Shown: positions 208 to 38,372 of the stretch, in pieces | How the letters are laid out: every line of letters starts with the position of its first letter | How positions within the stretch are numbered: position 1 is the first letter of the stretch | NCBI GenBank assembly: GCA_024398755.1 | Contig: JAKSIQ010000013.1 | Coordinates: 1 to 38,640, forward strand | From: Bacteroidaceae bacterium | GTDB taxonomy: Bacteria > Bacteroidota > Bacteroidia > Bacteroidales > Bacteroidaceae | Length of the DNA stretch: 38,640 bases | Direction: 5' to 3' | Notes under the pieces: generated by a model | Told to the model about the DNA's origin: nothing | Databases searched by the model: none | The model's input: only the letters and a program-made list of their open reading frames with translations | Made by a program: the position numbers and the translations under genes

Positions 208-2904
208 ATGATGCTATCAGAAATATGGCAGGGAATATCCCAGGCCTTCATAAACAATCTGTTGGTTGAGAACCGCTATCAGTTAATTCTGGGTGGACTA
301 AGAACCACACTTGTGATAACCATATTCGCCACTGTTGCAGGAACCCTGCTGGGCGGACTGATATGCCTGTTGAGAATGAGCCGCAACAGGTTTGCTAGCG
401 GTTTTGCAAAGGTTTACATTGACATTATGCGCGGCACACCGGTACTGGTTCTGCTCATGATAATGTTCTATGTGGTAATGGCGGAGTCTGAAGCAAGCGG
501 GCAACTCGTTGCCATTGTAACCTTTGCGCTCAATTCGGCAGCATACGTCAGTGAGATACTGCGCACAAATATTGAAAGTATTGACAAGGGACAGACGGAA
601 GCAGGACTCTCTTTAGGCTTTTCCAGGACACAGACGTTTCTCAGGTTCGTTCTTCCGCCAGCCGTACGTAATGCCGTACCGGTCTATCTGGGCGAAATAA
701 TAACGCTCTTGAAATCGACCTCAATAGTGGGTTACGTTGCTGTGATGGATATGACAAAGGCATCGGACCTGATACGTTCACGCACCTTTGACGCCTTCTT
801 TCCGCTTATTCTGATAGCATTGCTGTATTTTCTCATAGCATGGCTCATAGGGCTGGTTCTGAAGAGGCTTTTCAGTTTGAAGAAAAGACGGAAATATGCG
901 GCAGCGCTCATTCCAGCCATTGCATTCATAATGGTTTCGTGCAATCCCGCCGGGCATGCTGACTTCAAGCGGATAATGACCGAGGCCGATTTGGACGGCA
1001 TGAAGCTGGGAGTACTTCAGGGCACATCGCAGGAAATGGCGCTGCTTGACCGATTCGGCCCGCAAAGACTGCTTTCGTTCAATACCGAAAGCGATGCCAT
1101 AGAGGCCGTAAGAACCGGCAAAGCTGGTGCGTTCTATATGAACCGGCTGGCGACAATCGGTCTTATGATGACCAGCACAGAGTTCGACACAATACCCACA
1201 GCTTTTCCCGTAACCGATGTAGGAGCATGTTTCAATCCGGACAGCACGGAACTGGCAGATCAGTTCAGATGCTTTATGGATACGTTCAGAGTGTCTGCGG
1301 AATCGGAAGACATGTATTACCGCTGGCATAATCTGCTTGGAGAGGAAGCTCACCATGACATTGAAATGCCGACGCACGGCAGGCCCATCAAAGTCGGAGT
1401 GCTGGGCAGCACCCCGCAATTCAGCATGTTCATAAACGGAGAACTTGACGGTTATGAGATTGAACTGGTCAGGCGCTTTGCACGTGCTGCAGGCCGCCCT
1501 GTGGAGTTCAACATAATGAATTTCGGAGCATTGATACCCAGTCTGAATTCCGGAAAATCAGATATGATTCTTGCATGCATACTGATTACTCCCGAACGTC
1601 AGAAAGCGGTAATTCAGATACCATATCTTAAAAGCACCACACTGGCGCTGGTTAGAAAAGCACCTTTACATACGGCCACAGAAAGCGGTAGCCGCAAATG
1701 GCTTCTTGCCGCCTTATCCATAATTCTGCTGTGTGCGGCAATCCACATTGTCCTGCACCGGACAAAGAAACGCAGGCACAGCAGCCAGGACTCCGTTCAG
1801 AATATCAGCAGCGATATTGTGATTAAAGTGGAGCATTTGAAAAAGAGTTACCGCAACGACCTGCAGGTGCTGAAAGATATCAACGTTGAAATACGCCGTG
1901 GCGAGGTGATTTCAATAATCGGCCCGTCCGGCACGGGCAAAAGCACATTTCTGCGCTGTCTTAACCTGCTGGAACAGCCTGACGGCGGAACCGTATTGGT
2001 TGACGGTCAGAATATTCTTGCCGCCGATGCCGATGTGCCTGCGCTCAGGCGGAAAATCGGCATGGTGTTCCAGTCATTCAACCTGTTCAATGATTTTTCC
2101 GTTATTGACAACATAACATACGCTCCACAAAAGCTGCTGGGCCATAGCAAAGAACAGGCAGGCGCCGAAGCTATGGAACTGTTGCGGCTTGTAGGACTTG
2201 CCGATAAAGCCAACGCTTTTCCGGATGAACTGTCAGGCGGCCAGAAACAGCGTGTCGCCATAGCACGCGCTCTGGCCATGGAACCGGAAATAGTGTTGTT
2301 TGACGAACCCACATCGGCCCTGGACCCGACTATGGTGAGCGAGGTACTGGGTGTGATGCGCGCACTTGCAAAAAAAGGCGTTACCATGATGATAGTGACT
2401 CACGAAATGAGATTCGCGCGCGAAGTGAGCAGCCGTGTGTTCTACATGGATCAGGGCGTGATATACGAAGAAGGTACTCCGGAACAGATATTTGACAATC
2501 CGCAACGTGAAAGGACCCGTATCTTCATAAACGGCATACATGAGTGCAGGTATGAAATAAAATCGGACGAGTTCGATTACTATGGAATGAATGCCGGTAT
2601 GATAAGTTTTGCAGAAAAGTTCAACATGTCTTATGCCACAATCAACAATATTGAACACGTAATAGAAGAAGGACTTGTCATTATGGGGCATAGCAGGGGC
2701 ACATCAATAACACTCACTTATTCTGAAAAGAGTTCCGATGTGACGCTGAATATTGTCAGACCGCAAAGCCTGCCAGACAATCATCTTGAACTGGAAGCCA
2801 ATTCCCTTTCTACGACAATGATACGCGGCATGAGCAAGTCAGTGGAACTGAGCAGTACCGAATCGGCCTCCTGCCTGAAAGTCAGTATCAGAAACAATTT
2901 ATAA
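208..2904 (+). CDS. All-in-one amino-acid-type ABC importer: permease, substrate-binding domain, ATPase, GHKL-like tail
   Basis: The 898-residue protein appears to contain every part of a polar amino acid importer. Residues 1-225 are a HisM/GlnP-type permease with the EAA-loop signature near 131-165. Residues about 250-380 match lobe 2 plus the C-terminal helix of a family 3 solute-binding protein, and 392-485 match the N-terminal lobe 1, so the domain is in permuted order. A membrane helix (497-515) leads to a GlnQ-type ATPase with Walker [10 protein letters not shown] (572-580), Q622, LSGGQ (675-679), Walker B ending DEP (699-701) and H732. Residues about 782-898 resemble the GHKL fold of RsbW-like anti-sigma kinases but lack its Asn and Gly boxes. 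The substrate is probably a polar amino acid, by family only. An endoglucanase gene follows 11 bp downstream, probably in the same transcript. The start at 208 or 211 is uncertain because no ribosome binding site is visible. Confidence 0.88.
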
Positions 2905-2915
2905 CAACCGGAAAT

Positions 2916-5468
2916 ATGACTAAACGACTTTTCTTTCCAACAATCGCAATGGTGCTTTGCTGCTTGAGCACGCAGGCGCAGTCATTCAAGCTCAACGAGA
3001 GCGGTTATTTCAACAACGGCGGAGTTGATGTCATGTCATTCAGCGACTTCTACCCCGAAGGCCATCAGGGCGGCGTTACCATCATAATGAACGGCAAGCG
3101 TCTGTGTGCCAACGGCGACATCCGCTTCGAGCCCACACCCGGACAGTGGCAGCCCGTACCGGCACAATTGAACCGTAAGGTCGAGGCCGACAAAATAGTC
3201 ACAAACCTGATGTTTCCCGATACTACAAGGCACAATACCGGATTCAATCCCATGTTCTATCCCGATGTCAGGCTCAAATACAAGGTTACCCTTGAACCGC
3301 AGGGCGCCGGTCTTCTGGTTACGGTCGATTTGGAAAGCCCCATTCCCGACGCTCTTGTAGGACGCGCAGGCTTCAACCTGGAACTGTTTCCCGGCGAACT
3401 GTTCGGTAAGCCATGGATAATGGACAATCATACAGGTGTGTTCCCGCAGCAGCCCAATTCGCCTGTCATTGAACAGAAAAGCTATCTTGACATATCGGTA
3501 GGCGATTTCAAACCCAAGAGAAGCCAAGCCGCCAATCTGGAGCATCTGAATGCCACAGGATACAGTCCGTACAGGGCCGACGAAGTCATTGCTGAGCCGT
3601 ACGCCACAGGACGCAGCTTCGTCATGAATCCGAACGACAAGCTGAGCAAGATAACCATAAAGACGCTGACATCAGATTTGCAGCTGTACGATGGAAGAAT
3701 GAATCACAACAACGGCTGGTTCGTGCTGCATTCCGATATTCCGGCAGGAGCCACCAATGGTGCCGTGAAATGGTACATAGAACCCGAGGTTGTGGCCGGT
3801 TGGCAATACAAGCCGGTGGTACAGACATCACAGGTCGGTTATCTGCCCAATCAGCCCAAGACTGCCATCATAGAGATGGACAGGAAATCCGAAATGCTTT
3901 CCGAAGCCACTCTGATAAGGTACGATGCCGATGGCGAGAAGGTTGTGAAACGTATGCCTGTTGAAGAATGGCAGGGCAGTTTCCTGCGCTACAACTATGC
4001 CAAAGCCGATTTTTCGGATGTGAAGACCCCCGGCCTGTATACGGTCAAATACGGAGAGAGCACTTCCACGCTGTTCCGCATAGACAACGATGTATATGAC
4101 CGAGGCGTATGGCAACCCGTAATCGAGTATTTCCTGCCGGTGCAGATGTGTCACATGCGCGTATCAGAAAAGTACCGTGTATGGCATGATCTCTGCCACA
4201 TGGACGATGCAAGAATGGCTATGGAAGGCAGCCATATTGACGGTTATGCCCAGATGCACGACAACCTGACAAGCTATGACGAGTTGGATATGGTTCACGG
4301 ACTGAATGTGGGCGGATGGCACGATGCGGGCGACTTTGACCTGAGAGTGGAATCACAGTCTGACGAATGCTACGTGCTGACCATGGCTTACGAAATGTTC
4401 CATCCCAATATAGACGTCACAGCCATAGACCAGAACAGCCATACGGTCGAAATACATCAGCCCGACGGCAAGAACGACATTCTACAGCAGATAGAGCACG
4501 GAGCACTGACAGTTGTCAACGGATATCTGGCATTGGGACGATTGTACCGCGGCATAATCTGCAATACCATCAGACAGTACGTGCTGCTTGGTGACGCATC
4601 GGCCATGACCGACGGCATTCCCGGCAACGATGACGACCGATGGGTGTTCACCGAGAACAATCCGAGCCGTGAAATGAGTACGGCAGCCGCACTTGCAGCT
4701 TCATCGCGTGCGCTGAAGGGCTACAACGACACCCTGTCGGCACATTGCCTGGGTATAGCGCGCCAGATTTTTGAATCGCAGACAAGCGCGAACACATCGG
4801 GCATGGCACGCTTCGGCTTCGGTAACATGGGCAAGGTACAGACAGCCGCAGAGCTCTACATTGCAACAGGCGAACAGCAGTATCTTGACTATATTCTGAC
4901 CAACTGGAACACCTGCGTCAGGTCAATATCAAACTGCGGATGGTATCTGGCCAGAATAGAGAAGATTATGGAAACGCAGGACCAGTACAGCGAGCAGGTG
5001 ACGGCATTCAAGGAGGCTCTGAAGAAATACAGCGAGTCACTTGACAAGCAGAGCCTGCAGACACCGTACGGAGTGCCCTACCGTCCAAGCATCTGGGGCG
5101 CCGGCTGGGACATAGAATCGTTCGGTTACCGCCACTATTTCCTTGTTAAGGAATACCCGGAAATATTCTCAGACAATCAGGTGTTCAATGCTCTGAACTT
5201 CATACTCGGCTGCCATCCCGGCATCAACCAGAGGTCATTTGCCGGCGGTTCAGGTACGCAGTCTACAATAGTCGGCTACGGACTTAACCGTGCTGACTGG
5301 TCATACATTCCTGGAGGAGTAGTGTCAGGCACGGCACTCATCCAGCCCGATTTCCCTGAACTTCTGGAATTTCCATACCTGTGGCAGCAGGTGGAATACT
5401 GCCTGGGAGGCGATTCCACCCACTACATGTTCCTGGTATTGGCAGCAATGTCACTGCTCGGTATCTGA
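2916..5468 (+). CDS. GH9 endoglucanase/cellulase, secreted
   Basis: This 850-residue protein is a family 9 glycoside hydrolase that should cleave beta-1,4-glucan with inversion. A signal peptide covers about residues 1-21, ending near Thr-Gln-Ala-Gln. Residues about 22-295 form a beta-rich module that I do not recognise but that is also present in the second GH9 protein at 35724. An Ig-like CelD_N domain begins near 300 (SQVGYLPNQ). The (alpha/alpha)6 catalytic domain follows, with the DAGD motif at 470-473 carrying the nucleophilic-water base, and the expected acid Glu827 near the C-terminus after NRADW and IPGG motifs. There is no lipobox, so the protein is periplasmic or exported. It starts 11 bp after the ABC importer gene. 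The stop codon lies in one arm of a hairpin shared with the convergent polyamine operon. Confidence 0.9.
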   Translation: MTKRLFFPTIAMVLCCLSTQAQSFKLNESGYFNNGGVDVMSFSDFYPEGHQGGVTIIMNGKRLCANGDIRFEPTPGQWQPVPAQLNRKVEADKIVTNLMFPDTTRHNTGFNPMFYPDVRLKYKVTLEPQGAGLLVTVDLESPIPDALVGRAGFNLELFPGELFGKPWIMDNHTGVFPQQPNSPVIEQKSYLDISVGDFKPKRSQAANLEHLNATGYSPYRADEVIAEPYATGRSFVMNPNDKLSKITIKTLTSDLQLYDGRMNHNNGWFVLHSDIPAGATNGAVKWYIEPEVVAGWQYKPVVQTSQVGYLPNQPKTAIIEMDRKSEMLSEATLIRYDADGEKVVKRMPVEEWQGSFLRYNYAKADFSDVKTPGLYTVKYGESTSTLFRIDNDVYDRGVWQPVIEYFLPVQMCHMRVSEKYRVWHDLCHMDDARMAMEGSHIDGYAQMHDNLTSYDELDMVHGLNVGGWHDAGDFDLRVESQSDECYVLTMAYEMFHPNIDVTAIDQNSHTVEIHQPDGKNDILQQIEHGALTVVNGYLALGRLYRGIICNTIRQYVLLGDASAMTDGIPGNDDDRWVFTENNPSREMSTAAALAASSRALKGYNDTLSAHCLGIARQIFESQTSANTSGMARFGFGNMGKVQTAAELYIATGEQQYLDYILTNWNTCVRSISNCGWYLARIEKIMETQDQYSEQVTAFKEALKKYSESLDKQSLQTPYGVPYRPSIWGAGWDIESFGYRHYFLVKEYPEIFSDNQVFNALNFILGCHPGINQRSFAGGSGTQSTIVGYGLNRADWSYIPGGVVSGTALIQPDFPELLEFPYLWQQVEYCLGGDSTHYMFLVLAAMSLLGI

Positions 5469-5498
5469 GCACCCGGATAATGGGAATGGAAGTGCTCA
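5466..5498. terminator. Hairpin between convergent genes, stop codons in both arms
   Basis: TGAGCAC (5466-5472) pairs perfectly with GTGCTCA (5492-5498) around a 19-base loop. The left arm contains the TGA of the GH9 gene and the right arm the TGA of the dehydrogenase gene on the other strand. There is no T-tract on either side, so intrinsic termination is uncertain. It could instead act as an mRNA 3'-end stabiliser for both transcripts. Confidence 0.45.
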
Positions 5499-6755
5499 GT
5501 CAACCAGAACCGGATTCTCATCGACCATCCATGGCAAGCCCCATTTGTTGAGGGCTTCCATGTATGGATCCGGATCGAACTCTTCGACCGTGAACACACC
5601 GGGCTTCTTCCAGAGGCCTTCCATGACCATCATTGTACCTATCATGGCCGGAACACCTGTAGTGTAGCTGATAGCCTGCGATTCGACCTCGCGGTAACTT
5701 TCCTGATGGTCGCACACATTGTATATCTTCAGACTGCGCTTTCTGCCGTCCTTGATGCCTGTGAATATGCAGCCGATATTGGTTTTTCCAACGGTGCGCG
5801 GTCCCAGACTGGCCGGATCGGGCAGCAGGGCCTTGAGCAGCTGGATAGGCACAATTTCCTGACCGTTGAGCATGACAGGATCGGTACGCAGCATGCCTAC
5901 GTTCTCAAGACACTTCATGTGGGTAAGATAGCTCTGACCGAATGTCATGAAGAAACGTATTCTCTTTACGCCGGGAATGTTCTTTGCCAGCGACTCAATC
6001 TCTTCGTGATGCAGCAGGTACATGTCCTTCATACCCACCTGTTCGAAATTGTATTCACGCTTTATGCTCATGGCCGGAATTTCAATCCACTTGCCGTTTT
6101 CCCAGTACGATCCCGGGGCTGAAACCTCGCGCAGATTGATTTCCGGGTTGAAGTTGGTGGCAAACGGATAACCATGGTCACCGCCGTTACAGTCAAGAAT
6201 ATCTATTGTCTCTATCTGGTCAAAATAGTGCTTCTGGGCATACGCCGTAAAGACGCTGGTAACACCCGGATCAAAACCGGTGCCGAGCAGTGCGGTCAGG
6301 CCGGCCTTTCTGAAGCGGTCCTGATAGGCCCACTGCCATGAATAGTCAAAGTATGCCGAGAAGCCCAGTTCCTTGCAGCGCTTCTCATAAATGGCGCGCC
6401 AGGCCGGATCTTCGGTATCTTCAGCCTCAAAATTGGCGGTGTCAATGTAATGTACGCCAGTAGCAAGACACGCATCCATGATGGTGAGGTCCTGATAAGG
6501 GAGAGCCAGATTGAGAACCACATCGGGTCTGACCTTGTTTATCAGAGCCACAAGCGATTCCACGCTGTCAGCGTTTACCGTTGCAGTTGTAATGACGGCC
6601 CTGGTCTTGCCGGCCAGTTTTTCCTTCAAGGCAATGCACTTGCTTTCCGTACGGCTGGCAATGCATATTTCCGTAAACACTGAGTCGTTCTGAGCACACT
6701 TGCGTATTGCAACTCCGGCCACACCACCGCAGCCAATCACTAAAACTTTACCCAT
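5496..6755 (-). CDS. Carboxynorspermidine/carboxyspermidine synthase (saccharopine dehydrogenase family)
   Basis: The enzyme reductively condenses L-aspartate semialdehyde with a diamine, using NADPH, to give a carboxylated triamine that a partner decarboxylase turns into (nor)spermidine. The 419-residue length fits the family. A Rossmann nucleotide-binding motif VIGCGGVAG is at residues 6-14, and the family signature LGTGFDPGVTS is at 157-167. This is the last gene of the five-gene polyamine operon, 37 bp after the agmatinase gene. Its natural acceptor may be putrescine (carboxyspermidine route) or agmatine (carboxyaminopropylagmatine route). The sequence alone does not decide, but the gene neighbours allow both. 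Confidence in the family is high and in the exact substrate moderate. Confidence 0.92.
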   Translation of the reverse strand: MGKVLVIGCGGVAGVAIRKCAQNDSVFTEICIASRTESKCIALKEKLAGKTRAVITTATVNADSVESLVALINKVRPDVVLNLALPYQDLTIMDACLATGVHYIDTANFEAEDTEDPAWRAIYEKRCKELGFSAYFDYSWQWAYQDRFRKAGLTALLGTGFDPGVTSVFTAYAQKHYFDQIETIDILDCNGGDHGYPFATNFNPEINLREVSAPGSYWENGKWIEIPAMSIKREYNFEQVGMKDMYLLHHEEIESLAKNIPGVKRIRFFMTFGQSYLTHMKCLENVGMLRTDPVMLNGQEIVPIQLLKALLPDPASLGPRTVGKTNIGCIFTGIKDGRKRSLKIYNVCDHQESYREVESQAISYTTGVPAMIGTMMVMEGLWKKPGVFTVEEFDPDPYMEALNKWGLPWMVDENPVLVD

Positions 6756-6763
6756 TTGTATTC

Positions 6764-6785
6764 TATTATTCTGTTATTATTCTGT
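6764..6785. repeat. Perfect tandem duplication of an 11-mer
   Basis: TATTATTCTGT occurs twice back to back (6764-6774, 6775-6785) in the 37-bp gap between the agmatinase-like and dehydrogenase genes. It is AT-rich and sits just upstream of the dehydrogenase start on the - strand. It may be replication slippage or may set spacing for translation. No known site matches. Confidence 0.7.
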
Positions 6786-6792
6786 CAATTCA

Positions 6793-7647
6793 TTATCCGA
6801 TAGCCAGAAGCAGTTCTCTGACAACCTTGCAGGCAACGGCCGTTGAAGCACCGCTCTGATCAAGCGACGGCGCCAGTTCGTTCACATCGCATCCTACAAT
6901 ACGGCAGCCACCGCAAACGGTCATTATTGCCTCCAGCAGGTCGGAGAACTGCACCCCGCCCGCTTCGGGCGTACCTGTACCCGGAAATACCGACGGATCA
7001 AGCACGTCAAGGTCTATGGTAAAATAGACAGGCTTGCCTGCCAGCTTGCTGACGGTTTCAGCAAGGCCGTCAAAATTGTACTTGTGCAGTTCGGTATGAC
7101 CGGCAGCAGCCCAGCGGAATTCTTCACGTTCACCGGAACGTATTCCGAACTGATGTATGCGGCCGTCACCTGTCAGGTCATGACAGCGGCGGATTACGCA
7201 TGCATGCGACAGTTCAACGCCAAGGTACTCCTGACGCAGGTCAGTGTGCGCGTCAAAATGTATTATGTGCACGTCGGGATAGCGTTTGAACACTTCGCGG
7301 AAAGCGCCAAGCGTTACAAGATGTTCCCCTCCTGTCATGAACGGTATCTTGCCATCGTCAAGAATGGTTGCAGTACGGGCGGCAATGGCATCAAGAGCCA
7401 GCACGCTGCTACCCAGACTCAACTCTATGTCGCCGCTGTCAAACACGCTTATGTCGGCCATGTCTTTGTCCTGGTACGGGCTGTAGGTCTCAAGCCCGAA
7501 CGATTCCGACCTTATGGCCCTGCTGCCGAATCTGGTGCCGGGACGATACGATGTGGTGGAATCGAACGGTGCTCCGAAAAGCACTATACCGGCATCGGCA
7601 TAGGTGGCATCGGCCCCCAGAAATGTCTCTACGTTACTGTCAAGCAT
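6793..7647 (-). CDS. speB: Agmatinase-family ureohydrolase (agmatinase or aminopropylagmatine ureohydrolase)
   Basis: This 284-residue manganese enzyme of the arginase/agmatinase family hydrolyses a guanidino group to release urea. Metal ligands are visible: H109 in GGEH, D132/H134/D136 in HFDAHTD, and D212/D214 in DLDVLDP. The TPEAGG stretch at 226-231 is typical of compact SpeB proteins. It overlaps nothing but starts only 2 bp after the SpeE-like gene, so the two are cotranscribed and probably translationally coupled. The substrate could be agmatine, giving putrescine, or N1-aminopropylagmatine, giving spermidine. Related enzymes doing the second reaction are known from thermophiles, and its position beside an aminopropyltransferase homologue keeps this option open. 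Confidence 0.9.
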   Translation of the reverse strand: MLDSNVETFLGADATYADAGIVLFGAPFDSTTSYRPGTRFGSRAIRSESFGLETYSPYQDKDMADISVFDSGDIELSLGSSVLALDAIAARTATILDDGKIPFMTGGEHLVTLGAFREVFKRYPDVHIIHFDAHTDLRQEYLGVELSHACVIRRCHDLTGDGRIHQFGIRSGEREEFRWAAAGHTELHKYNFDGLAETVSKLAGKPVYFTIDLDVLDPSVFPGTGTPEAGGVQFSDLLEAIMTVCGGCRIVGCDVNELAPSLDQSGASTAVACKVVRELLLAIG

Positions 7648-7649
7648 TG

Positions 7650-8513
7650 TCAGTCCTTTATGTGTTCAACGTCTTCAAGCATCTGTTCCACATACTTTGG
7701 AAGCTGGAAACAGCCCTTGTGCAGATTGGTGGTATAGTATCTGGTGTCTATATTCAACTTGTTCCAGTCTTCTTCACGCAGATCTATTACCGGCTTGTAT
7801 TTTTTTGAAGCAAAGCCAAGAAGCCAGTAGCCCGACGGGTACGATGGTATATGCGCCTGATATACACGGCTTATTGGGAAACTGTTCACAATACGCTTGT
7901 GGGCCTTCTGTGTCTCTATGCGGTCTTCCTCGTAGAACGGGCTCTGGTGCTGGTTCACCATTATGCCATCGTCTTTCAGCGCCTTGAAGCAGCTGCCGTA
8001 GAATTCGCGCGACAACAGGCTCTCACCAGGGCCGTAGTAACCTGCGGAATCTACAATGATTATATCGTAAAGGTTCTCTATGTGGCGTATGTGGCGAAGG
8101 GCGTTCTCATGATAGATTTTCACCTTCTTGTCTTTGAGACAGCCTGCTATCTCGGGGAAGAAGTGCATGCAGGCATCGACCACACCTTCGTTCATCTCGA
8201 CCAGATCTATACGCTGTATGCTCTGATACTTCAGCAGTTCACGCACAACGCCACCGTCGCCGGCACCGAATACAAGAATGTTCTTCGGATTGGGATGAAC
8301 GGCCATAGGAACGTGGGTCAGCATTTCATGATAGATGAATTCATCGCGTTCGGTCATAATTATGTAGCCGTCAACAACCAGCACGCGGCCGAAATCGACC
8401 GACTCGAAAATATCAACGCGCACATAGTCACGCTCTTCAGAGTAGAGGTGCTTGTTTACTCTGATTGACAACTTGACATTCTCGGAATGCATTTCAGAAA
8501 ACCAGTATTCCAT
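7650..8513 (-). CDS. speE: Spermidine-synthase-like aminopropyltransferase with altered active site
   Basis: The 287-residue protein has the two-domain spermidine synthase plan. The N-terminal beta domain includes the TERDEFIYHEML segment (54-65). The Rossmann-like methyltransferase-type fold carries GAGDGG (83-88), Glu106 that would bind the ribose, and the YPSGYW segment. Compared with the family consensus recalled from memory, the catalytic motif DS(T/S)DPxGP reads DSAGYYGP (155-162), so the second Asp is Gly158. The Gln normally found before the TxxDEF motif is replaced by Ile. It may therefore not be an ordinary putrescine aminopropyltransferase. It sits 6 bp after the arginine decarboxylase gene and 2 bp before the ureohydrolase gene. 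No S-adenosylmethionine decarboxylase gene is present in this window to supply the usual donor. Confidence 0.8.
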   Translation of the reverse strand: MEYWFSEMHSENVKLSIRVNKHLYSEERDYVRVDIFESVDFGRVLVVDGYIIMTERDEFIYHEMLTHVPMAVHPNPKNILVFGAGDGGVVRELLKYQSIQRIDLVEMNEGVVDACMHFFPEIAGCLKDKKVKIYHENALRHIRHIENLYDIIIVDSAGYYGPGESLLSREFYGSCFKALKDDGIMVNQHQSPFYEEDRIETQKAHKRIVNSFPISRVYQAHIPSYPSGYWLLGFASKKYKPVIDLREEDWNKLNIDTRYYTTNLHKGCFQLPKYVEQMLEDVEHIKD

Positions 8514-8519
8514 TTGGCG

Positions 8520-9977
8520 TCAGTATGTTGAATTTTCCTTGATAACGTTCAATCTCTCAATTTTCTCATCTTCGGGACCCGACATTGAACAGCCCTTCTC
8601 CTTGGCATACAGAATGTAGTCTATGATTTCCTGGGTTATACGTTCGCCCGGAGCCAGAATAGGAATGCCGGGAGGATAGCACATTACGAATTCCGTGCAT
8701 ATACGGCCGTTGGTCTCGCGTATGGGTATCATTTCCTCCTTCTGGGCATAGAATGCCTCCTGAGGTGTCATGACCACCATAGGGTTGATGTATTCGTGAT
8801 CGAACAGACCTGAACGCGAACGCTTGTATCGGCGGCGTATGTCGTAAAGGGCACTGACCAGACGTTCAACTTCGCGCATACGGTCTCCTATCGATATGTA
8901 TGCCAGCACATTGCCCAAATCGCCAAGTTCCAGCTGAATGTCATATTCGTCACGCAGCAGGTCATACACTTCAATGCCTGCCAGTCCGATGTCAAGGGTG
9001 AAGACCGTCAGTTTTGTAGTGTCGAAGTCATATATGCTGTCATCGTTTATAAGTTCCTTTCCGTATGCGTAATAGCCGCCTATCTTGTTGATTTCGGTAC
9101 GGGCATAGTCGGCAATGCGGCACACCTCGGCAAATTCCTCACGACCGCGCAGGGCCAGATTCCTGCGGCTCATGTCAAGACTGGCCAGCAACAGGTACGA
9201 TGCGCTGGTGGTCTGGGTAAGGTTGATTACCTGACGTATGTAACCGGGACTGACTGCCGGACCGGCCAGCAGTATTGAGCTCTGGGTCAGACTTCCACCT
9301 GACTTGTGCATGCTGACGCATGACATGTCGGCGCCTGCCTCCATGGCGGTCATGGGCATGTTGTCGCTGAAATAGAACTGCGTGCCGTGAGCTTCATCGA
9401 CCAGCACCATCATACCGTGCTCATGCGCAAGTTCCACTATTCTTTTCAGGTTCGAGCAGATGCCGTAATAGGTAGGGTTGTTGACAAGAATTGCAACAGC
9501 ATCGGAATTCTCTTCAATGGCCTTTTCAATTTGTGAAATCTTCATGCCCAGAGCAATACCAAGCCGTTTGTCCATATCGGGATTGACATAGACCGGAACT
9601 GCGCCGTTGACCACAAGAGCGTTTATGACACTGCGGTGCACGTTTCGCGGAAGTATTATTTTGTCTCCCTTCTTTGACGCCGTCAGCACCATTGTCTGTA
9701 CTGCGCTGGTGGTACCGCCTACCATAAGGAAGGCGCTCGATGCCCCGAACGCGTCGGCAGCCAGCTGCTCGGCTTCCTTGATTACCGAAACAGGATGACA
9801 AAGGTTGTCAAGCGGTTTCATGGAGTTCACATCCAACTCCAGACACTGTTTTCCTAACAGTTTGACAAGTTCCGGGTTACCCCTGCCGCGTTTGTGGCCT
9901 GGAACATCAAAAGGAATTACCCTCTTCCTTCTGAACTCTTCAAGTGCTTCGTAAATGGGAGCTCTGTCCTGATTCAT
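8520..9977 (-). CDS. speA: Arginine decarboxylase (Orn/Lys/Arg decarboxylase, aspartate aminotransferase fold)
   Basis: This PLP enzyme of 485 residues belongs to the short Bacillus SpeA-like branch and has an aminotransferase-type large domain. The N-terminus carries FDVPGHKRGRG (23-33). DEAH (194-197) provides the Asp for the PLP ring nitrogen, and SMHKSGGSLTQ (222-232) carries the Schiff-base Lys225. Family members decarboxylate arginine, lysine or ornithine. Arginine, giving agmatine, is favoured because an agmatinase-family gene lies in the same operon. It starts 31 bp after the carboxynorspermidine decarboxylase gene and ends 6 bp before the SpeE-like gene. The C-terminal domain near residues 400-480 contains the PPGIP segment usual in this branch. 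Confidence 0.88.
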   Translation of the reverse strand: MNQDRAPIYEALEEFRRKRVIPFDVPGHKRGRGNPELVKLLGKQCLELDVNSMKPLDNLCHPVSVIKEAEQLAADAFGASSAFLMVGGTTSAVQTMVLTASKKGDKIILPRNVHRSVINALVVNGAVPVYVNPDMDKRLGIALGMKISQIEKAIEENSDAVAILVNNPTYYGICSNLKRIVELAHEHGMMVLVDEAHGTQFYFSDNMPMTAMEAGADMSCVSMHKSGGSLTQSSILLAGPAVSPGYIRQVINLTQTTSASYLLLASLDMSRRNLALRGREEFAEVCRIADYARTEINKIGGYYAYGKELINDDSIYDFDTTKLTVFTLDIGLAGIEVYDLLRDEYDIQLELGDLGNVLAYISIGDRMREVERLVSALYDIRRRYKRSRSGLFDHEYINPMVVMTPQEAFYAQKEEMIPIRETNGRICTEFVMCYPPGIPILAPGERITQEIIDYILYAKEKGCSMSGPEDEKIERLNVIKENSTY

Positions 9978-10008
9978 TTGTGTTTGATATAGAACCGTTA
10001 TTGTTGCG

Positions 10009-11148
10009 TTATAGTCTTGATTTGAAATCGGCGTACGAGAACGATTTCCAGAGCTGTAAATCGTCGCCGCGTTTTATGTATATTGACGGCAGCGGAACGC
10101 CGTTGAACGTATTGTTCTTTACCATTGAATAAATGGACATGTCTTCAAAGACAAGAATCTGTCCTTCGTGTAGTTCATGGTCAAACGAATACTCGCCTAT
10201 TGTGTCGCCGGCAAGACAGGTGGGACCGCCGAAACGGTATGTGAATGGTTTTTCATGAGCTTCGGCGCTGTTTCCCAACGGGGGGCGGTAAGGCATTTCC
10301 AGAACGTCGGGCATGTGACAGGCCGCACTTGTGTCAAGAATGGCATTCCTCACTCCGTCAACCGGAGACTGGATTTCAAGCACAGACGTGTACAGATAAC
10401 CTCCGTTCAGGGCGACCGCCTCGCCCGGTTCAAGATATACAAGCAGGCCATATTCGGAACGCATGCGTCCTATGCAACGTTCCAGGCGTGCAATGTCATA
10501 ATCATGACGTGTAATATGATGACCGCCACCAAAGTTCACCCATTTCATGTTTGCCAGATATTTGCCGAACTTGCGGCAGAATTCGTCAAGAGTGACTTCG
10601 AGCGCATCGGAATCCTGTTCGCACAAAGTATGGAAATGAAGCCCGTCAAGCAACGGAAGGGCCCGGGCCGATGCCTCTTCAAACTGTGACAGAGTCACCC
10701 CCAGCCTGCTGCCCGGAGCACACGGATCATATATGGCATGGTCCTTCTGTGTCGATATTTCAGGGTTGATGCGCAGACCCACCTGCAGGCCTGCCTGTTT
10801 TGCCGCCGGTCCGAACTTTTCCAGCTGGGCTATTGAGTTGAATACAATGTGGTCGCATATTTCAAGAATCTGCGGAATATCCTGAGCACGGAACGCAGGA
10901 TTGTATATGTGGTTCTCGGCCCCCGGCATCTCTTCATGGCACAGTCTGGCCTCGAATATGCCGCTTGCAACGGCACCGGTCAGATATTTTGAAATCAGCG
11001 GATACAGAGCATAGCCGCTGAAAGCCTTCTGGGCCAGAAGAATGCGACAACCGGTGCGGTCCATGACACCACGCAGCACCCGCAGGTTGCGTTCAATGGC
11101 ATCGGCATCGATCACGTAACACGGAGTCTGAACAGCAGATTCTCTCAT
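10009..11148 (-). CDS. nspC: Carboxynorspermidine/carboxyspermidine decarboxylase
   Basis: This 379-residue PLP enzyme has the alanine-racemase/DapDC-type barrel fold and removes the carboxyl group from carboxy(nor)spermidine. The PLP lysine is K41 in LLAQKAF. The Gly-rich phosphate loop reads FGGGHHIT, and the C-terminal part has the GPTCLAGD motif with the Cys typical of the family. It is the first gene of the operon, transcribed from a promoter in the 11149-11230 gap. Together with the synthase at 5496 it makes a full aspartate-semialdehyde route to spermidine. Its substrate might instead be carboxyaminopropylagmatine if the pathway runs from agmatine. Confidence 0.92.
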   Translation of the reverse strand: MRESAVQTPCYVIDADAIERNLRVLRGVMDRTGCRILLAQKAFSGYALYPLISKYLTGAVASGIFEARLCHEEMPGAENHIYNPAFRAQDIPQILEICDHIVFNSIAQLEKFGPAAKQAGLQVGLRINPEISTQKDHAIYDPCAPGSRLGVTLSQFEEASARALPLLDGLHFHTLCEQDSDALEVTLDEFCRKFGKYLANMKWVNFGGGHHITRHDYDIARLERCIGRMRSEYGLLVYLEPGEAVALNGGYLYTSVLEIQSPVDGVRNAILDTSAACHMPDVLEMPYRPPLGNSAEAHEKPFTYRFGGPTCLAGDTIGEYSFDHELHEGQILVFEDMSIYSMVKNNTFNGVPLPSIYIKRGDDLQLWKSFSYADFKSRL

Positions 11149-11295: not shown

Positions 11296-12693
11296 TTACT
11301 TGTTCTTCTTCCAGTCACGTACTGTGTAGTAAACCGGCTTGCGCTGGTTGTCCTTGTCGTACAGCAGCGGGAAGTTGTTTGCACCCAGCCATGAATCGCG
11401 GTCGCATACATTCCAGAATGTTACGCAAGAAATGTTCTTCTTGTACTTGCGCAGAACGCTGAACAGCTCTGCATACTTGTCCATCTGCATCTGGGCGATT
11501 GAGTCTGACAGTACCTGACCTTCGCCACGGCTGAATGACAGGCCACCACCTGCCTCGTGGTTGATACGTACGTCAAGTTCAGTAATCTGGATGTTGTCAA
11601 CCAGTTCAAGATACATGTTGATGGCAGTCTCGAAGTCTTCCATGTTCGGGTTGTCATAGATGTTGTAGTGACCCTGCATGCCGATACCGGTAATAGGAGC
11701 ACCTTCTGCCTGAAGTTTCTTGACCATGTTGTAGATGTAGGTTCTCTTGGCAGGAGTCCATGCGCTGTAGTCATTGTAGAACAGGTCAGCTTCCGGATCA
11801 GCCTCGTGAGCGAACTGGAAGGCCTTCAGAATGAATTCATCACCGCAGAGCTGGAAAGCCTGTGACTGACGGAATGACTTCTCGTATTCGCAGTCAGGTT
11901 CGTTGGCATCGCTCATGGCTTCGTTTACAACATCCCAGCAATATACAACGTCCTTGTAACGGTTGATTACAAAGTTGATGTGAGCCTGAAGTGAGTCGTA
12001 GAAGTCTTCCTTGGTTGCCTTGGCATACTTTGGAACCTTTACAGTCTGAGGAGCCTGAGCCTGAGCCTGCTGTCCCTGTGGACGAGGACCACCGAAGCCT
12101 GGGAATCCGCCCTGAGGCATCTGGCCACCGCCAAAGCCCGGGAATCCACCCTGAGGAGCGCCCTGAGGAGCGCCCTGAGGAGCGCCCTGAGGCATAGGAG
12201 GCATCTGACCGCCACCAAAACCACCAAAACCGCCGAAGCCGCCGAAGCCGCCGAAGCCGCCGAAGCCACCACGTGCAGGCTGCTCTACCCAAACGGTATC
12301 ACCGTTCTCGTCGCGCTCTACAACCTGATTGCCGTTCTCGTCATACTTGTTGAACATCCAAGTTGCAAACTGGCTGTGCCATACAAGGCAGTGACCGCGC
12401 ATCTTGATTCCGTTGGCACGGCAGAAATCTGCAATTGCATCGGCCTCGGTAAGATTCCATACACCCGGCTGCGGATGAATTTCACCCGGTTTCATGCAGT
12501 TTTCAGCTGTTATGCTGTTGTACTCCTTGAGCACGATTGATGACTGGAGTGAATCACTGAGGTTGCGTCCGGTAACAGCAACGCCAATCTTGAAGTAATT
12601 CTTGTAGGCATCCTTCAGACCTGGATCCTTCGGGCCACATGCGCTAATTGCAACTGCTGCTGCAACAAGGGCGACGATTGTAAGTTTTTTCAT
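11296..12693 (-). CDS. GH10 endo-beta-1,4-xylanase lipoprotein with low-complexity insert
   Basis: This 465-residue GH10 enzyme cleaves the xylan backbone with retention. A lipobox ISAC with Cys19 predicts a membrane-anchored, probably surface lipoprotein. GH10 motifs run in order: HCLVWHSQ (101-108), DVVNEAM (254-260) with acid/base Glu258, and ITELDV (370-375) with nucleophile Glu372. The catalytic fold is interrupted between about 142 and 218 by a repeat segment. It begins with GGF triplets, continues with PQGA tetrapeptides and ends with Gln/Ala/Pro-rich sequence. The gene is monocistronic, with its own promoter upstream and an intrinsic terminator downstream. The insert lies after the strand carrying the WHSQ motif, where GH10 loops vary, so activity is probably kept. 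Confidence 0.93.
   Translation of the reverse strand: MKKLTIVALVAAAVAISACGPKDPGLKDAYKNYFKIGVAVTGRNLSDSLQSSIVLKEYNSITAENCMKPGEIHPQPGVWNLTEADAIADFCRANGIKMRGHCLVWHSQFATWMFNKYDENGNQVVERDENGDTVWVEQPARGGFGGFGGFGGFGGFGGFGGGQMPPMPQGAPQGAPQGAPQGGFPGFGGGQMPQGGFPGFGGPRPQGQQAQAQAPQTVKVPKYAKATKEDFYDSLQAHINFVINRYKDVVYCWDVVNEAMSDANEPDCEYEKSFRQSQAFQLCGDEFILKAFQFAHEADPEADLFYNDYSAWTPAKRTYIYNMVKKLQAEGAPITGIGMQGHYNIYDNPNMEDFETAINMYLELVDNIQITELDVRINHEAGGGLSFSRGEGQVLSDSIAQMQMDKYAELFSVLRKYKKNISCVTFWNVCDRDSWLGANNFPLLYDKDNQRKPVYYTVRDWKKNK
12042..12272 (-). repeat. In-frame 9-bp and 12-bp tandem repeats inside the xylanase gene
   Basis: On the + strand CTGAGGAGCGCC is repeated three times without mismatch at 12151-12186, encoding PQGA units. 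A 9-bp unit of the form GCCGCCGAA, with CCACCAAAA variants, is repeated about six times between 12212 and 12266 and encodes GGF units. All units are multiples of three, so slippage would change protein length without a frameshift. Confidence 0.9.
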
Positions 12694-34144: not shown

Positions 34145-35677
34145 ATGGCTGATTTCATATATTCACTCAAAGGAATAAGCAACACTGAAAAATTCTCCAG
34201 ACTATACAGGCATCAGAAGGAAGTTGCACCTGGTCTGACACTGTTTTCAAATTATGACATCGAGGAGTATCAGTCAAAACAGGCCTGCGCTTTCATAGTA
34301 GGCACCTGCACAGTTCTCGGAAAAGACAAAGGCAGTTTCATTACAGGAGCCCTGAATTCATTTGATGCGGACACGACAATGCCTTCACTGCAAAGGAATC
34401 TTGTCGGACAGTATGTGGCAATCATCGTCACCGAATCAGGGAAGTCGTATATACAGTCTGATTTTCTGAACATACGCAGCATCTTCTTTGATGCCGAAGC
34501 ACATCAGGCAGCATCTGCCATAGGAGCGCTTGATGCCATGTCCGGCAGCAAAGACGACTACAAGGCATTCGAATTCCGAGCCATGAGAGGCTGTCTGTAT
34601 CCGCAGTGGCTGGGAAGCACAACGGCTCTACCATCGGTTTCAAGACTCAGAATCTGCCAGTATCTGGAAATTGACCACGCCACTGGCGCACTCAACGTAC
34701 ATGACACCGTCGTAAAAATGGACAACACGAAGCCGGCAACACCTGAGAAGAATGCTTTCATCTGTACCGGTATCCTGAAATCCATCATAGGACACTTCTC
34801 GAACTATCATGCTGCATCGACCATTACCGGAGGATATGACAGCCGTATCATTTCTGCAATCTGTTCAAAGAAGATTGACGACCTCACCCTGCGCATATCA
34901 ACTTTCGGCGACCCGGGATTCAAGGATCTGAAGATTGCCAGAAAAGTAGCATCGGTACTTGGCAGAAGAATGGCCGTATACAATGCAAACCTGAAAGACG
35001 AGGCTGAAGACTTCTTCAATTACACCGACGGACTGACACCGTTCGAAAACTGCATTGTCACAAGCATGATGTACAGGACAGGTGATTTTGAAGTAGGTTT
35101 CGGCGGCACGCTAGGAACGGAGATTTTCTCAACTCTAAGATATGTGACATGCGAAGAGCTGGTAAGCGATTTCTGCCGCATAGCTTCACAGAGCAAGGAC
35201 AGCGAAAAATACATCAAGCGATTTGAAGAAGCCATCAGAAATGAGATAGAACACATTTCAAGTCACATAAAGCTGGCTGAATATGAAGAAAGAGACATTG
35301 TGCGCCTGTTCTGGACTTTTGCCACCGCACGTTTCTCATCGCCTATAGTATCGGCTTATGATATAAACGGACATCAGATGGAGCCTTTCGCTACATTCCC
35401 GATGGTTGAAGCTGCGCTGGGCATTTCGTATGATTTCCAGGGTGACCAGAAAACACACGGCCGCTTCTACATGATTCCGAAAATGATCATGAAGTCAGTA
35501 AGCACAAGAGTCGGAATGATTGATTCCACACATTTTGCGCCGTTCCTTCCGGTTTCATTCTTCACATTCCCGCTTTACGTCATAGGTAAGTTCAAGGCAA
35601 ATATATACTACAAGACAAAAAAGAACCGTGAATTCCCGTTTGTCTGGGATGCCGGATACAGGAATTACTACGAATAA
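34145..35677 (+). CDS. Asparagine-synthetase-like PP-loop protein without glutaminase cysteine
   Basis: The 510-residue protein follows the AsnB plan. An N-terminal region ends in FLNIRSIFF (107-115), like the AsnB DRLGIRPLYY segment. A synthetase domain follows with the ATP pyrophosphatase loop TITGGYDSR (226-234). The N-terminus begins Met-Ala-Asp, so the Cys2 nucleophile needed to use glutamine is missing. The GDE motif of AsnB is replaced by GGTLGTE in the later acidic loop. Relatives in O-antigen loci are thought to amidate uronic acids, and others make beta-lactam or lasso rings. Here an adenylating, ligase-like modification of a sugar or carrier is likely but unproven. It lies 24 bp after the initiating transferase gene. 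Confidence 0.75.
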   Translation: MADFIYSLKGISNTEKFSRLYRHQKEVAPGLTLFSNYDIEEYQSKQACAFIVGTCTVLGKDKGSFITGALNSFDADTTMPSLQRNLVGQYVAIIVTESGKSYIQSDFLNIRSIFFDAEAHQAASAIGALDAMSGSKDDYKAFEFRAMRGCLYPQWLGSTTALPSVSRLRICQYLEIDHATGALNVHDTVVKMDNTKPATPEKNAFICTGILKSIIGHFSNYHAASTITGGYDSRIISAICSKKIDDLTLRISTFGDPGFKDLKIARKVASVLGRRMAVYNANLKDEAEDFFNYTDGLTPFENCIVTSMMYRTGDFEVGFGGTLGTEIFSTLRYVTCEELVSDFCRIASQSKDSEKYIKRFEEAIRNEIEHISSHIKLAEYEERDIVRLFWTFATARFSSPIVSAYDINGHQMEPFATFPMVEAALGISYDFQGDQKTHGRFYMIPKMIMKSVSTRVGMIDSTHFAPFLPVSFFTFPLYVIGKFKANIYYKTKKNREFPFVWDAGYRNYYE

Positions 35678-35723
35678 CTGGCAACCAGCCGTCATTCTAC
35701 AACCAATCATTACGCCACCATTT

Positions 35724-38372
35724 ATGAAGAGAATCCTTTATTCTATTCTGATTGTCTGTGCATTTGCCGCATGTACAGAAAACAATGCCAGTCAGGAACT
35801 GCCAGGTCTGGCTATCAATGAAAAAGGTTATTATGAAGAACCGGGCGTCAACGTGCTTGTGTACTCCAATCAGTATCAGGGCATTTTCTGTGACGAAAAG
35901 ACCGCCGGCATTGAACTTATTCAGCGCGGTGTCAGAATTGGCACCGGCGGCGGTGTACGCCTTATGAACACACCTGAGCAGTGGGATATATATGCCACTA
36001 TGACAGACCGAAGCATCGACACTTTAGACGGGGTTATCAACTGCCGCTTCAATTATCCCGATTACAGTTTCGAATATGGTCTGACGGTAAAGTCGGAAGG
36101 CTGCGGCATGATAATTCAGGTTAATCTGGACAAGCCTCTGCCTGCAGATCTTGAAGGCAAAGCCGGACTGAATATGGAGTTTTTCCCTGCAACATATTTC
36201 GGCAAGACATATCTTGTTGACGGCCAGAGCGAAATATTTCCGCGCTATCCGTCAAGCGACACTGAAATGCGTCCCGTGTCGGAAAAAATCACGCAGTTCT
36301 ACGGTCTTTCCACATTTGATGACCGTGGACGCGACGAATTCATAGTTCCAAGTCCCATATCAAAAGGACATACTCTGGTGCTTGCCCCCGAAGATAAAGC
36401 ACTGCGCGTGCTATTCCATTCGGATTCGGAAATCTGTCTGTTTGACGGGCGCAATCTGTCACAGAACGGAACATTCGTCGTCAGGTCGTTGCTTCCCGCA
36501 GGCGAGACAGGCACCGTTCTTGAATGGTATGTTGAGCCTACACTGGATTCAGAATGGATAAGGGAACCGAACATAGGTTTCTCGCAAATAGGTTACACTC
36601 CGGCCCAGAAAAAGGTTGCAGTCATTGAACTCGACCCGAATGACAGACTTGCCGACAAGGCAACGGTCTGGCGTGTCAATGCCGATGGGAGCAACACAGA
36701 GGTTCTGCAGGCCGATGTCACGGAATGGGGTATTTTCTACGACCGCTACAACTACGCGCATGCCGACTTCAGTGCAGTTACTGAACCGGGCACATATTTT
36801 ATTGAATATAACGGTGTACGCACCAACCCGTTCCCAATTAACGAAGACGTCTATAAAGGCAAGTGGTACAACACAATGGACGTGTGGCTGCCTGTACAGA
36901 TGGACCACATGATGGTGAACGAAGCCTATCGCGTCTGGCATGGCCGTTCTCACATGGATGATGCCATTCAGGCGCCCACCAACTACCAGCAGCATGACGG
37001 CTATCGTATGGGAGACACGACCAACACAAAATACAAACCGTATGAACACATTCCGGGGCTTGCTGTAGGAGCATGGTACGATGCCGGTGACTTTGACATC
37101 CAGTCCGGCACTGTAATCGGCCTGACCACACAGCTGGCAGAACTTTGGGATGTGCTGCGTCCGGAGCGCGACCAGACATATATTGACCAGCAGACGCAAT
37201 TCGTTGACATTCATCGTCCGGACGGCCTGCCCGATGTAATCCAGCAGGTTGAGCACGGAGCCCTTAATCTGTGCGCGCAGATTGAGAATATCGGATTCAT
37301 TGCAGGAGGTATTGTACAGGGCAACATGCACCAGTACCATCATCTGGGCGATGCTGTAAATATTACCGACGGTTACATCTATGACCCGGAACTGGAACCG
37401 TATCAGGTTCTTGACAACAAATATTCGGGAACTCTCGATGACCGTTTCGCTTTCACCAACAACGCAGGCAACCCGATGTCAAATGTCAGCGTCTGTGCGG
37501 CCCTTGCCCATGCGGCCAAAGTTCTAAAGCCGTATATTCCTGAAACTGCAGCCCGCTGCGAGTTGAACGCTTTGAAGCTTTGGGAGGATATGGATGAATA
37601 TCAGGAACAGATACAGGCACGTCAGCAAACCCAGCAGAATGGCCAGACAGGCAGAAACGGTCGTGGGTGGAATCAGGACCGGTCGGCTGCTGCCATACAG
37701 TTGTGGCTTCTGACAGGCGATGACAAATACAAGGAAATCTTCATGCCAGGCGTCATGCGTCAGATTGAAGCTGCAAGACAGGCTCCACAGGGTGTCGACG
37801 ACAACCGCACCATGGGCGGTAGCGCAATGCGCGCCCCACGTGTCAACCTTACAACCGCTCTCATGCTTCTACCATACATGGATGACGAATTCAAGGAAAA
37901 AATCCGTGAAGTTGTTCCTGTTTTCGTGCAGAACGCTGAAAACGAGGCCAAATCAACTCCTTACGGTGTCCCTGTAGCAGGAGGCACTTGGGGTGGAACA
38001 GAACGTGTCATCAGCTGGGCCCAGGACAACTATATGGTATGGCGCTACTTCCCAGACATGATTGACCCGGAACTGGTACTGGCAGGTCTGAACTTCATTT
38101 ACGGGTGTCACCCGTATTCAAACGTATCGTTCATAACCGCTGTTGGCGTGAACACCAAGAAGGTGGCATACGGCAACAACCGTGCCGACTACACCTTCAT
38201 ACCAGGTGGCATTGTTCCCGGTCTGGTACTTTTGAAGCCTGATTTCCTTGAGCACAAGGATGACTATCCGTTCCTTTGGGGTGAAAACGAATGCTGCACA
38301 CGTTCCGTACCTTCGTACGTAACCATTTCTATAGGTGCGCAGGAAATTGCAAAGGCTATAAACGACAGATAA
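35724..38372 (+). CDS. GH9 endoglucanase lipoprotein
   Basis: The start at 35724 is chosen because it opens a lipoprotein signal peptide with Cys16 (CAFAAC). A longer frame from 35628 would bury it within the upstream gene. The mature 882-residue product has the same unassigned N-terminal module (about 20-275) as the GH9 enzyme at 2916, then a CelD_N domain (from about 279, FSQIGYTP). The catalytic domain carries DAGD at 453-456 and Glu856 as the expected acid in GENE. A Gln/Gly/Asn/Arg-rich insert lies at about residues 628-655. It is read through from the polysaccharide genes, with 46 bp and no promoter between, so it might act on the cell's own polymer as well as on cellulose. Confidence 0.9.

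Follow-up and report, generated by a model that had tools for sequence, protein, structure and literature searches.

The window, by which we mean the whole 38,640-nucleotide stretch of DNA analysed, is an entire contig from a member of the Bacteroidaceae, with 207 bp lying 5' of the importer gene considered here. In the ORF list, the gene is an open frame at 208-2904 on the forward strand that encodes 898 amino acids without an internal stop. Pfam models assign residues 47-221 to BPD_transp_1, 394-486 to SBP_bac_3, and 555-703 to ABC_tran, while no Pfam family of its own is found for residues 262-375. These assignments, with the ORF, confirm the original prediction of permease, binding part, and ATPase in one frame, and the boundaries it proposed within the chain (262-375, 392-485, and 497-515) are correct to within a few residues. 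Its domain list did not include the C-terminal domain at 776-898. The features are as follows.

208-2904, forward strand: 898-residue ORF, with permease, transmembrane helix, permuted binding domain, transmembrane helix, ATPase, and C-terminal domain (ORF list and Pfam)
208-882, forward strand: PAAT-type permease domain, residues 1-225, with BPD_transp_1 at 47-221 (Pfam) and a 20-residue EAA-type loop (motif by eye)
898-954, forward strand: hydrophobic helix, residues 231-249, returning the chain to the periplasm; its MVSC resembles a lipobox and may be what is left of a lipoprotein signal
979-1341, forward strand: H2, residues 258-378, equivalent in a family 3 binding protein to the bulk of lobe 2 and the C-terminal portion of lobe 1 (phmmer and profile)
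1342-1377, forward strand: joint between native C terminus and native N terminus, residues 379-390 (profile)
1378-1665, forward strand: H1, residues 391-486, lobe 1 plus the first strand of lobe 2, matching SBP_bac_3 profile positions 1-94, with putative carboxylate-binding Arg464 (Pfam and profile)
1699-1755, forward strand: transmembrane helix, residues 498-516, returning the chain to the cytoplasm
1819-2532, forward strand: GlnQ-type ATPase, residues 538-775 (Pfam and NCBIfam), with Walker A, LSGGQ, Walker B, and His switch intact (motifs by eye)
2533-2901, forward strand: C-terminal domain, residues 776-898, seen on related ATPases, possibly degenerate and HATPase_c_2-like (profile)

Sequence matches give the order PAAT-type permease, transmembrane helix, permuted family 3 binding domain, second transmembrane helix, ATPase, and C-terminal domain. 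Features of a type I (PAAT) importer are present in both transport domains, namely an EAA-type loop in the BPD_transp_1 permease and, in the ATPase, the Walker A and B, LSGGQ, and His switch motifs. The top NCBIfam match of the ATPase is GlnQ, at 287 bits, under the equivalog cut-off of 379. The hydrophobic helices at 231-249 and 498-516 bear out the expected membrane anchor on either side of the binding domain. Positively charged residues come after the permease and again after helix 498-516, as would fit an ATPase in the cytoplasm and a binding domain in the periplasm. Elsewhere in the window, five polyamine-type genes on the reverse strand at 5496-11148 (saccharopine-dehydrogenase-like, arginase/agmatinase family, spermidine synthase family, Orn/Lys/Arg decarboxylase, and a second PLP decarboxylase) may constitute a spermidine or norspermidine pathway. 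Plant-cell-wall enzymes are encoded as well, two GH9 proteins with CelD_N (2916-5468 and 35628-38372, forward) and one GH10 protein (11296-12693, reverse).

The binding part had been predicted, from family motifs, to be circularly permuted, and this is supported. A phmmer search of residues 246-497 against the PDB gave two stretches in inverted order in all five alignments printed. In the best of these, to 4zv1, query positions 148-239 align with the N-terminal half of the structure and positions 13-129 with the C-terminal half; the second stretch is weak alone, with an independent E-value of 0.012 for 8hnj and of 6.3 to 100 for the remaining four. Profile A1, built from 44 sequences with the window's included, matches AncQR (4zv1) at chain residues 4-107 with model positions 142-244 (i-E 4.8e-34) and at 105-231 with model positions 7-129 (6.9e-24). 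The two inverted blocks tile residues 4-231 of the structure end to end, overlapping by three residues, and model positions 129-142 form the joint that links the native C terminus to the native N terminus. At the sequence level, these alignments confirm an exact permutation, and the inverted order of the blocks relative to PDB chains implies that the window chain runs permease, H2, H1, ATPase. The same evidence excludes two truncated binding domains, each in normal order, because each half occurs once and the two jointly tile a single domain.

A control set of 25 half-matching ORFs (24 distinct, L132 repeating L077) came from genomes of the window's phylum and from three plasmid records (Pseudomonadota and Cyanobacteriota). 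All 24 distinct members are in regular order, an H1 block (model positions of about 133-245) followed by an H2 block (about 6-148), with a weak second block in L118 (E 0.09) and L022 (0.0014). Four sequences in the control search (L069, L128, L129, and L131) instead aligned in one stretch and are permuted. The window domain scores 69.4 bits against SBP_bac_3, whose cut-off is 26.4, but over positions 1-94 of 132, the N-terminal part only; both lobes are nevertheless present, in inverted rather than lobe-1-before-lobe-2 order. All 90 members of A3, our alignment and profile of permuted domains, match SBP_bac_3 at an E-value of 1e-3 or better. Annotation with PF00497 alone picks up only a single half of the window's domain and can make proteins of this kind seem truncated.

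The original prediction gave the inverted order correctly; what we add is that the cut falls inside lobe 2 and that the permutation is a trait of a whole family rather than an oddity of one gene. H1 ends after the strand LALVRK, aligned with LVMVK of GlnH (8hnj), and we take the first hinge crossing to lie just before that end. The alignment places the cut in a loop within lobe 2, after its first strand, and not between the lobes, so that both hinge crossings would be kept and the membrane tethers would leave from lobe 2. Against the GluA2 S1S2 construct, the A3 profile matches residues 23-116 and 154-257. The S1/S2 junction, which is the site of the pore in full-length receptors, is at construct residues 115-117, and the best stretch in full-length chains starts at 115. 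In genomes of the window's phylum we also observed GluR0-like channels, in which a TVGYG pore lies within a family 3 binding protein; in these six distinct bacterial ORFs (L077, L123, L124, L125, L126, and L127), model positions 241-244 and 8-10 are separated by 110-113 residues. The matching junctions in GluA2 and in the TVGYG ORFs indicate that permuted proteins start and end at the loop that receives channel insertions.

Full-span matches, meaning about 200 or more of the 247 profile positions, occur among the matches listed in at least 21 of 295 genomes of the window's order and, for a sample of the phylum, in at least 34 of 392 genomes, the window's own genome being included in both counts. 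Among the matches listed, which are the best by E-value, the other 33 phylum genomes all fall in three families (f128, f129, and f146) of a different class; within the window's own class, no full-span match listed for the 392 genomes lies outside the window's order. Sought across the phylum, the permuted domain is thus found in the window's order and in these three families. Scores are bimodal: full-span matches exceed 180 bits, except for three divergent permuted members at 84-100, and half-matches reach at most 82 bits, except for two short-frame fragments in one genome (G580; 128 and 89 bits).

Architectures were counted over distinct ORFs clear of locus ends, in an uneven sample of loci fetched by our searches that includes some near-copies. 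The order H2-H1-permease and the free H2-H1 unit are each found in 28 ORFs, two units with a permease in 12, and three units with a permease in 4; permease-H2-H1-ATPase accounts for 7 (the window included), H2-H1-permease-ATPase for 5, permease-H2-H1-permease for 1, and regular H1-H2 for 5. The 28 free-standing ORFs span 261-306 amino acids, 26 of them with a lipobox-like motif, and show that one H2 plus one H1 is enough to make a unit. Loci such as L080, L086, L087, and L097 encode the free binding protein next to a permease and an ATPase that have genes of their own; the permuted binding protein is probably the older form, from which one-chain importers would be derived. Two or three permuted domains lie in tandem upstream of one permease in L025, L030, L051, L054, L057, and L063. 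In L010, which is one and the same gene as L030, the middle H1-H2 can also be read as a full protein in regular order, so the halves of tandem copies may pair in more than one way.

The window's own layout, permease-H2-H1-TM-ATPase with a C-terminal tail, is complete in seven loci: L003 (the window), L001 (the same gene as L004), L002, L006, L023, L039, and L062, the last from another family of the window's order (genome G232). A further example, L005, is cut by a contig end. Two of these genes may share a genome, as do L001/L004 and L039 in G001 and L023 and L005 in G031; L001 and L002 come from metagenome-assembled genomes from horse faeces. Locus L020 encodes at 709-2910, in one open frame, a permease, a lipobox, H2, H1, and a second permease. 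It is plausibly an intermediate, in which a permease gene was fused to a downstream lipoprotein gene and the second permease was lost later, and the MVSC at residues 242-245 of the window protein would be a relic of that lipobox.

A FastTree phylogeny of 116 rows (92 permuted and 24 regular) shows no clean split between permuted and regular domains, and its deep branches are poorly supported. IQ-TREE was run in quick mode with 54 of these rows, namely 31 of the 92 permuted and 23 of the 24 regular ones, L118 and L021 being omitted as long branches; here the permuted/regular label needs four changes, and a single clade is not rejected (p-AU 0.15, with a long-branch warning). Among plasmid records, none of the 443 matching the window domain covers 80% of it. 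With L010 as the query, 135 of 1157 records cover 80%, and the 25 among the matches listed all do so in two pieces. The plasmid rows L112 and L113 (L010 query) and L114 (window query) are in regular order by profile.

The C-terminal domain, about 120 residues long (2533-2901 in the window), occurs on both fused and stand-alone amino-acid ABC ATPases, L037, L041, L043, and L069 among them. A profile made from the window's copy alone matches the window itself, five of the six further fused loci (L062 being the exception), and three separate ATPases. A profile of the domain has no significant match in the PDB, nor did comparing profiles link it to a stand-alone HATPase_c_2 protein encoded in the same genome (E-values of 0.17 and, at zero bits, 0.05). 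Of 19 tails scanned, one (L069) matches HATPase_c_2, with an E-value of 1.7e-5 and 25.2 bits, under the Pfam cut-off of 27.4; the tails of L081 and L037 have no matches. The L069 tail matches a profile of the other 18 at 9.6e-16. Those 18 were picked by their length and position after the ATPase, which makes any match of their own to this profile circular. The domain could possibly be a degenerate regulatory one, a suggestion to which these matches lend slight weight.

Two residues of the putative ligand site are kept. Arg464 of the window protein, which we take to align with the carboxylate-binding Arg of family 3 binding proteins, is Arg in 87 of the 90 A3 members, and Thr273 is Ser or Thr in 82 of the 90. 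Asn312 presumably occupies the position of the amino-group-binding Asp of LAO/HisJ. It is Asn in the window and its two closest relatives (>75% identity) and Asp in 49 of the 90, and at this position it may mean that ligand binding is changed. Our guess from these residues would be an amino-acid-like ligand whose amino end is recognized in an altered way. Among ORFs of at least 150 residues, at an E-value of 1e-10, the window shares no gene neighbours with L001, L002, or L131 beyond the importer gene and its antisense frame, in comparisons spanning about 5 kb per side in L001 and L002, about 3 kb in L131, and 207 bp upstream in the window.

H1 and H2 are under equal purifying selection. Against one orthologue, L001, dN/dS rises from 0.085 (ATPase) and 0.087 (permease) through 0.096 (H2) and 0.098 (H1) to 0.154 (C-terminal domain). 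The linkers that carry helices 231-249 and 498-516 evolve faster, with dN of 0.58 and 0.78 versus 0.10-0.30 in the domains. A frame or assembly artefact that fused adjacent genes might be suspected in a draft assembly of 86 contigs, with the importer gene close to a contig end. However, the frame has no internal stop, the same layout recurs in six further complete loci, and dN/dS is low across all five domains (0.085-0.154); the recurrence and the low ratios rule out a frame error, and we give an artefact of any kind a negligible chance.

We think it probable that the protein is a homodimerising PAAT type I half-transporter with all its parts in one chain and with a permuted, GlnH/ArtJ-like clamshell pinned by lobe 2. 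The binding domain would fold within the chain as a single clamshell that starts and ends in a lobe-2 loop, with about 12-18 residues linking the native C terminus to the native N terminus. Helices 231-249 and 498-516 would hold both new ends, pinning lobe 2 to the membrane and leaving lobe 1 to swing closed over an amino-acid-like ligand for import. A pair of such chains would supply two copies each of the permease, the tethered binding domain, and the ATPase.

Because each chain has one permease and one ATPase, dimerisation is needed anyway, and this leaves room for a domain-swapped dimer in which each chain's H2 pairs with the H1 of its partner and the binding site exists only in the homodimer; cis and trans pairing are indistinguishable from sequence. 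The native N and C termini of family 3 binding proteins lie in the same lobe, however, and it is between these that the joint of 12-18 residues sits; an isolated H2-H1 unit exists in 28 free-standing ORFs. We regard the swap as decidedly unlikely. A different division of the chain would follow if signal peptidase II processed the lipobox-like Cys245, yielding a permease and a lipid-anchored binding-TM-ATPase chain as two mature proteins. MVSC in the window and the SC or AC found at the equivalent position of L001, L005, L002, L023, and L006 are consistent with this, but L039 and L062 have kept the fusion without such a Cys motif and the segment is internal to the chain, so that processing seems unlikely.

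Very improbable, in our judgement, is that the protein acts as a receptor rather than an importer, passing a ligand signal through its ATPase or C-terminal domain without uptake. A binding domain set between transmembrane helices is receptor-like, and one of 19 relatives of the C-terminal domain matches HATPase_c_2; yet the permease has its EAA-type loop and a dN/dS (0.087) similar to that of the ATPase, in which all motifs are present. The half-transporter remains the reading we prefer, and in its one-chain forms the stoichiometry of binding domain, permease, and ATPase is fixed.

Among known systems, the domain resembles GlnH/ArtJ/HisJ-type proteins (SBP_bac_3, PF00497) in belonging by sequence to the same fold family, with both halves present and the carboxylate-site Arg kept, but differs in being circularly permuted, with 94 of 132 Pfam positions matched. 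NCBIfam has no model above cut-off for the binding domains scanned, those of five proteins and the window's. In the open-licence PMC literature, a scope outside which most subscription papers fall, we found no report of permuted family 3 binding proteins among the matches listed, and they form a large, apparently undescribed family. In OpuA the binding domain is placed after the permease and the ATPase is separate. Partial texts describe two SBDs per transporter for OpuA of Lactococcus lactis (PMC11065425) and a natural circular permutation in glycine betaine-binding proteins (CPSARST, PMC2395249; OpuAC and ProX structures). A term search of the part of the OpuA SBD paper available found no passage on permutation. 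OpuA is similar to the window protein in having a binding domain attached to the permease, and differs in its glycine betaine ligand and separate ATPase. The permuted betaine-binding proteins likewise share natural permutation within an ABC-importer binding protein but are of another family with other ligands, and no OpuAC-type family appears among Pfam matches of the window at E <= 1. Permutation, then, is known in betaine binders; for family 3 we found no precedent among the papers listed.

Family 3 binding domains have their C terminus in lobe 1, and the tethers of GlnPQ presumably leave from that lobe. GlnPQ of Lactococcus lactis is described, in the part of PMC8025302 available, as an SBD1-SBD2-permease homodimer with two binding domains per chain and a separate ATPase, GlnQ, and with linkers of 19 residues between SBD2 and permease and 14 between SBD1 and SBD2. 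Its tandem SBD pair (6h30) is the top PDB match of the A1 profile. The two systems share a PAAT-type permease with covalently attached family 3 binding domains, but those of GlnPQ precede the permease, in regular order and with a C-terminal tether, whereas the window's follows the permease and has the ATPase fused. Permutation for biosensors is usually engineered, and natural binders with lobe-2 termini could serve as biosensor scaffolds.

The family is a natural test of how a clamshell must attach to the membrane, with the tether moved from lobe 1 to lobe 2 as in glutamate receptors. Lig_chan-Glu_bd matches 65 of the 90 permuted members, and in GluA2 and GluR0-like channels the membrane segments join at the same lobe-2 loop. 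Ionotropic glutamate receptors differ in having the halves in regular order with the pore between them, where the window protein has an ABC permease and ATPase instead; by eye, there is no TVGYG-type pore motif in its 898 residues, and its halves are inverted. The permutation could conceivably be a functional rewiring, in which clamshell closure would pull on helices 231-249 and 498-516 and thence on permease and ATPase, making a ligand-gated ABC importer that is coupled via its tethers and not by docking alone. We hold this to be rather unlikely; if it were true, GluR-type channels and permuted importers would be two independent uses of one attachment point.
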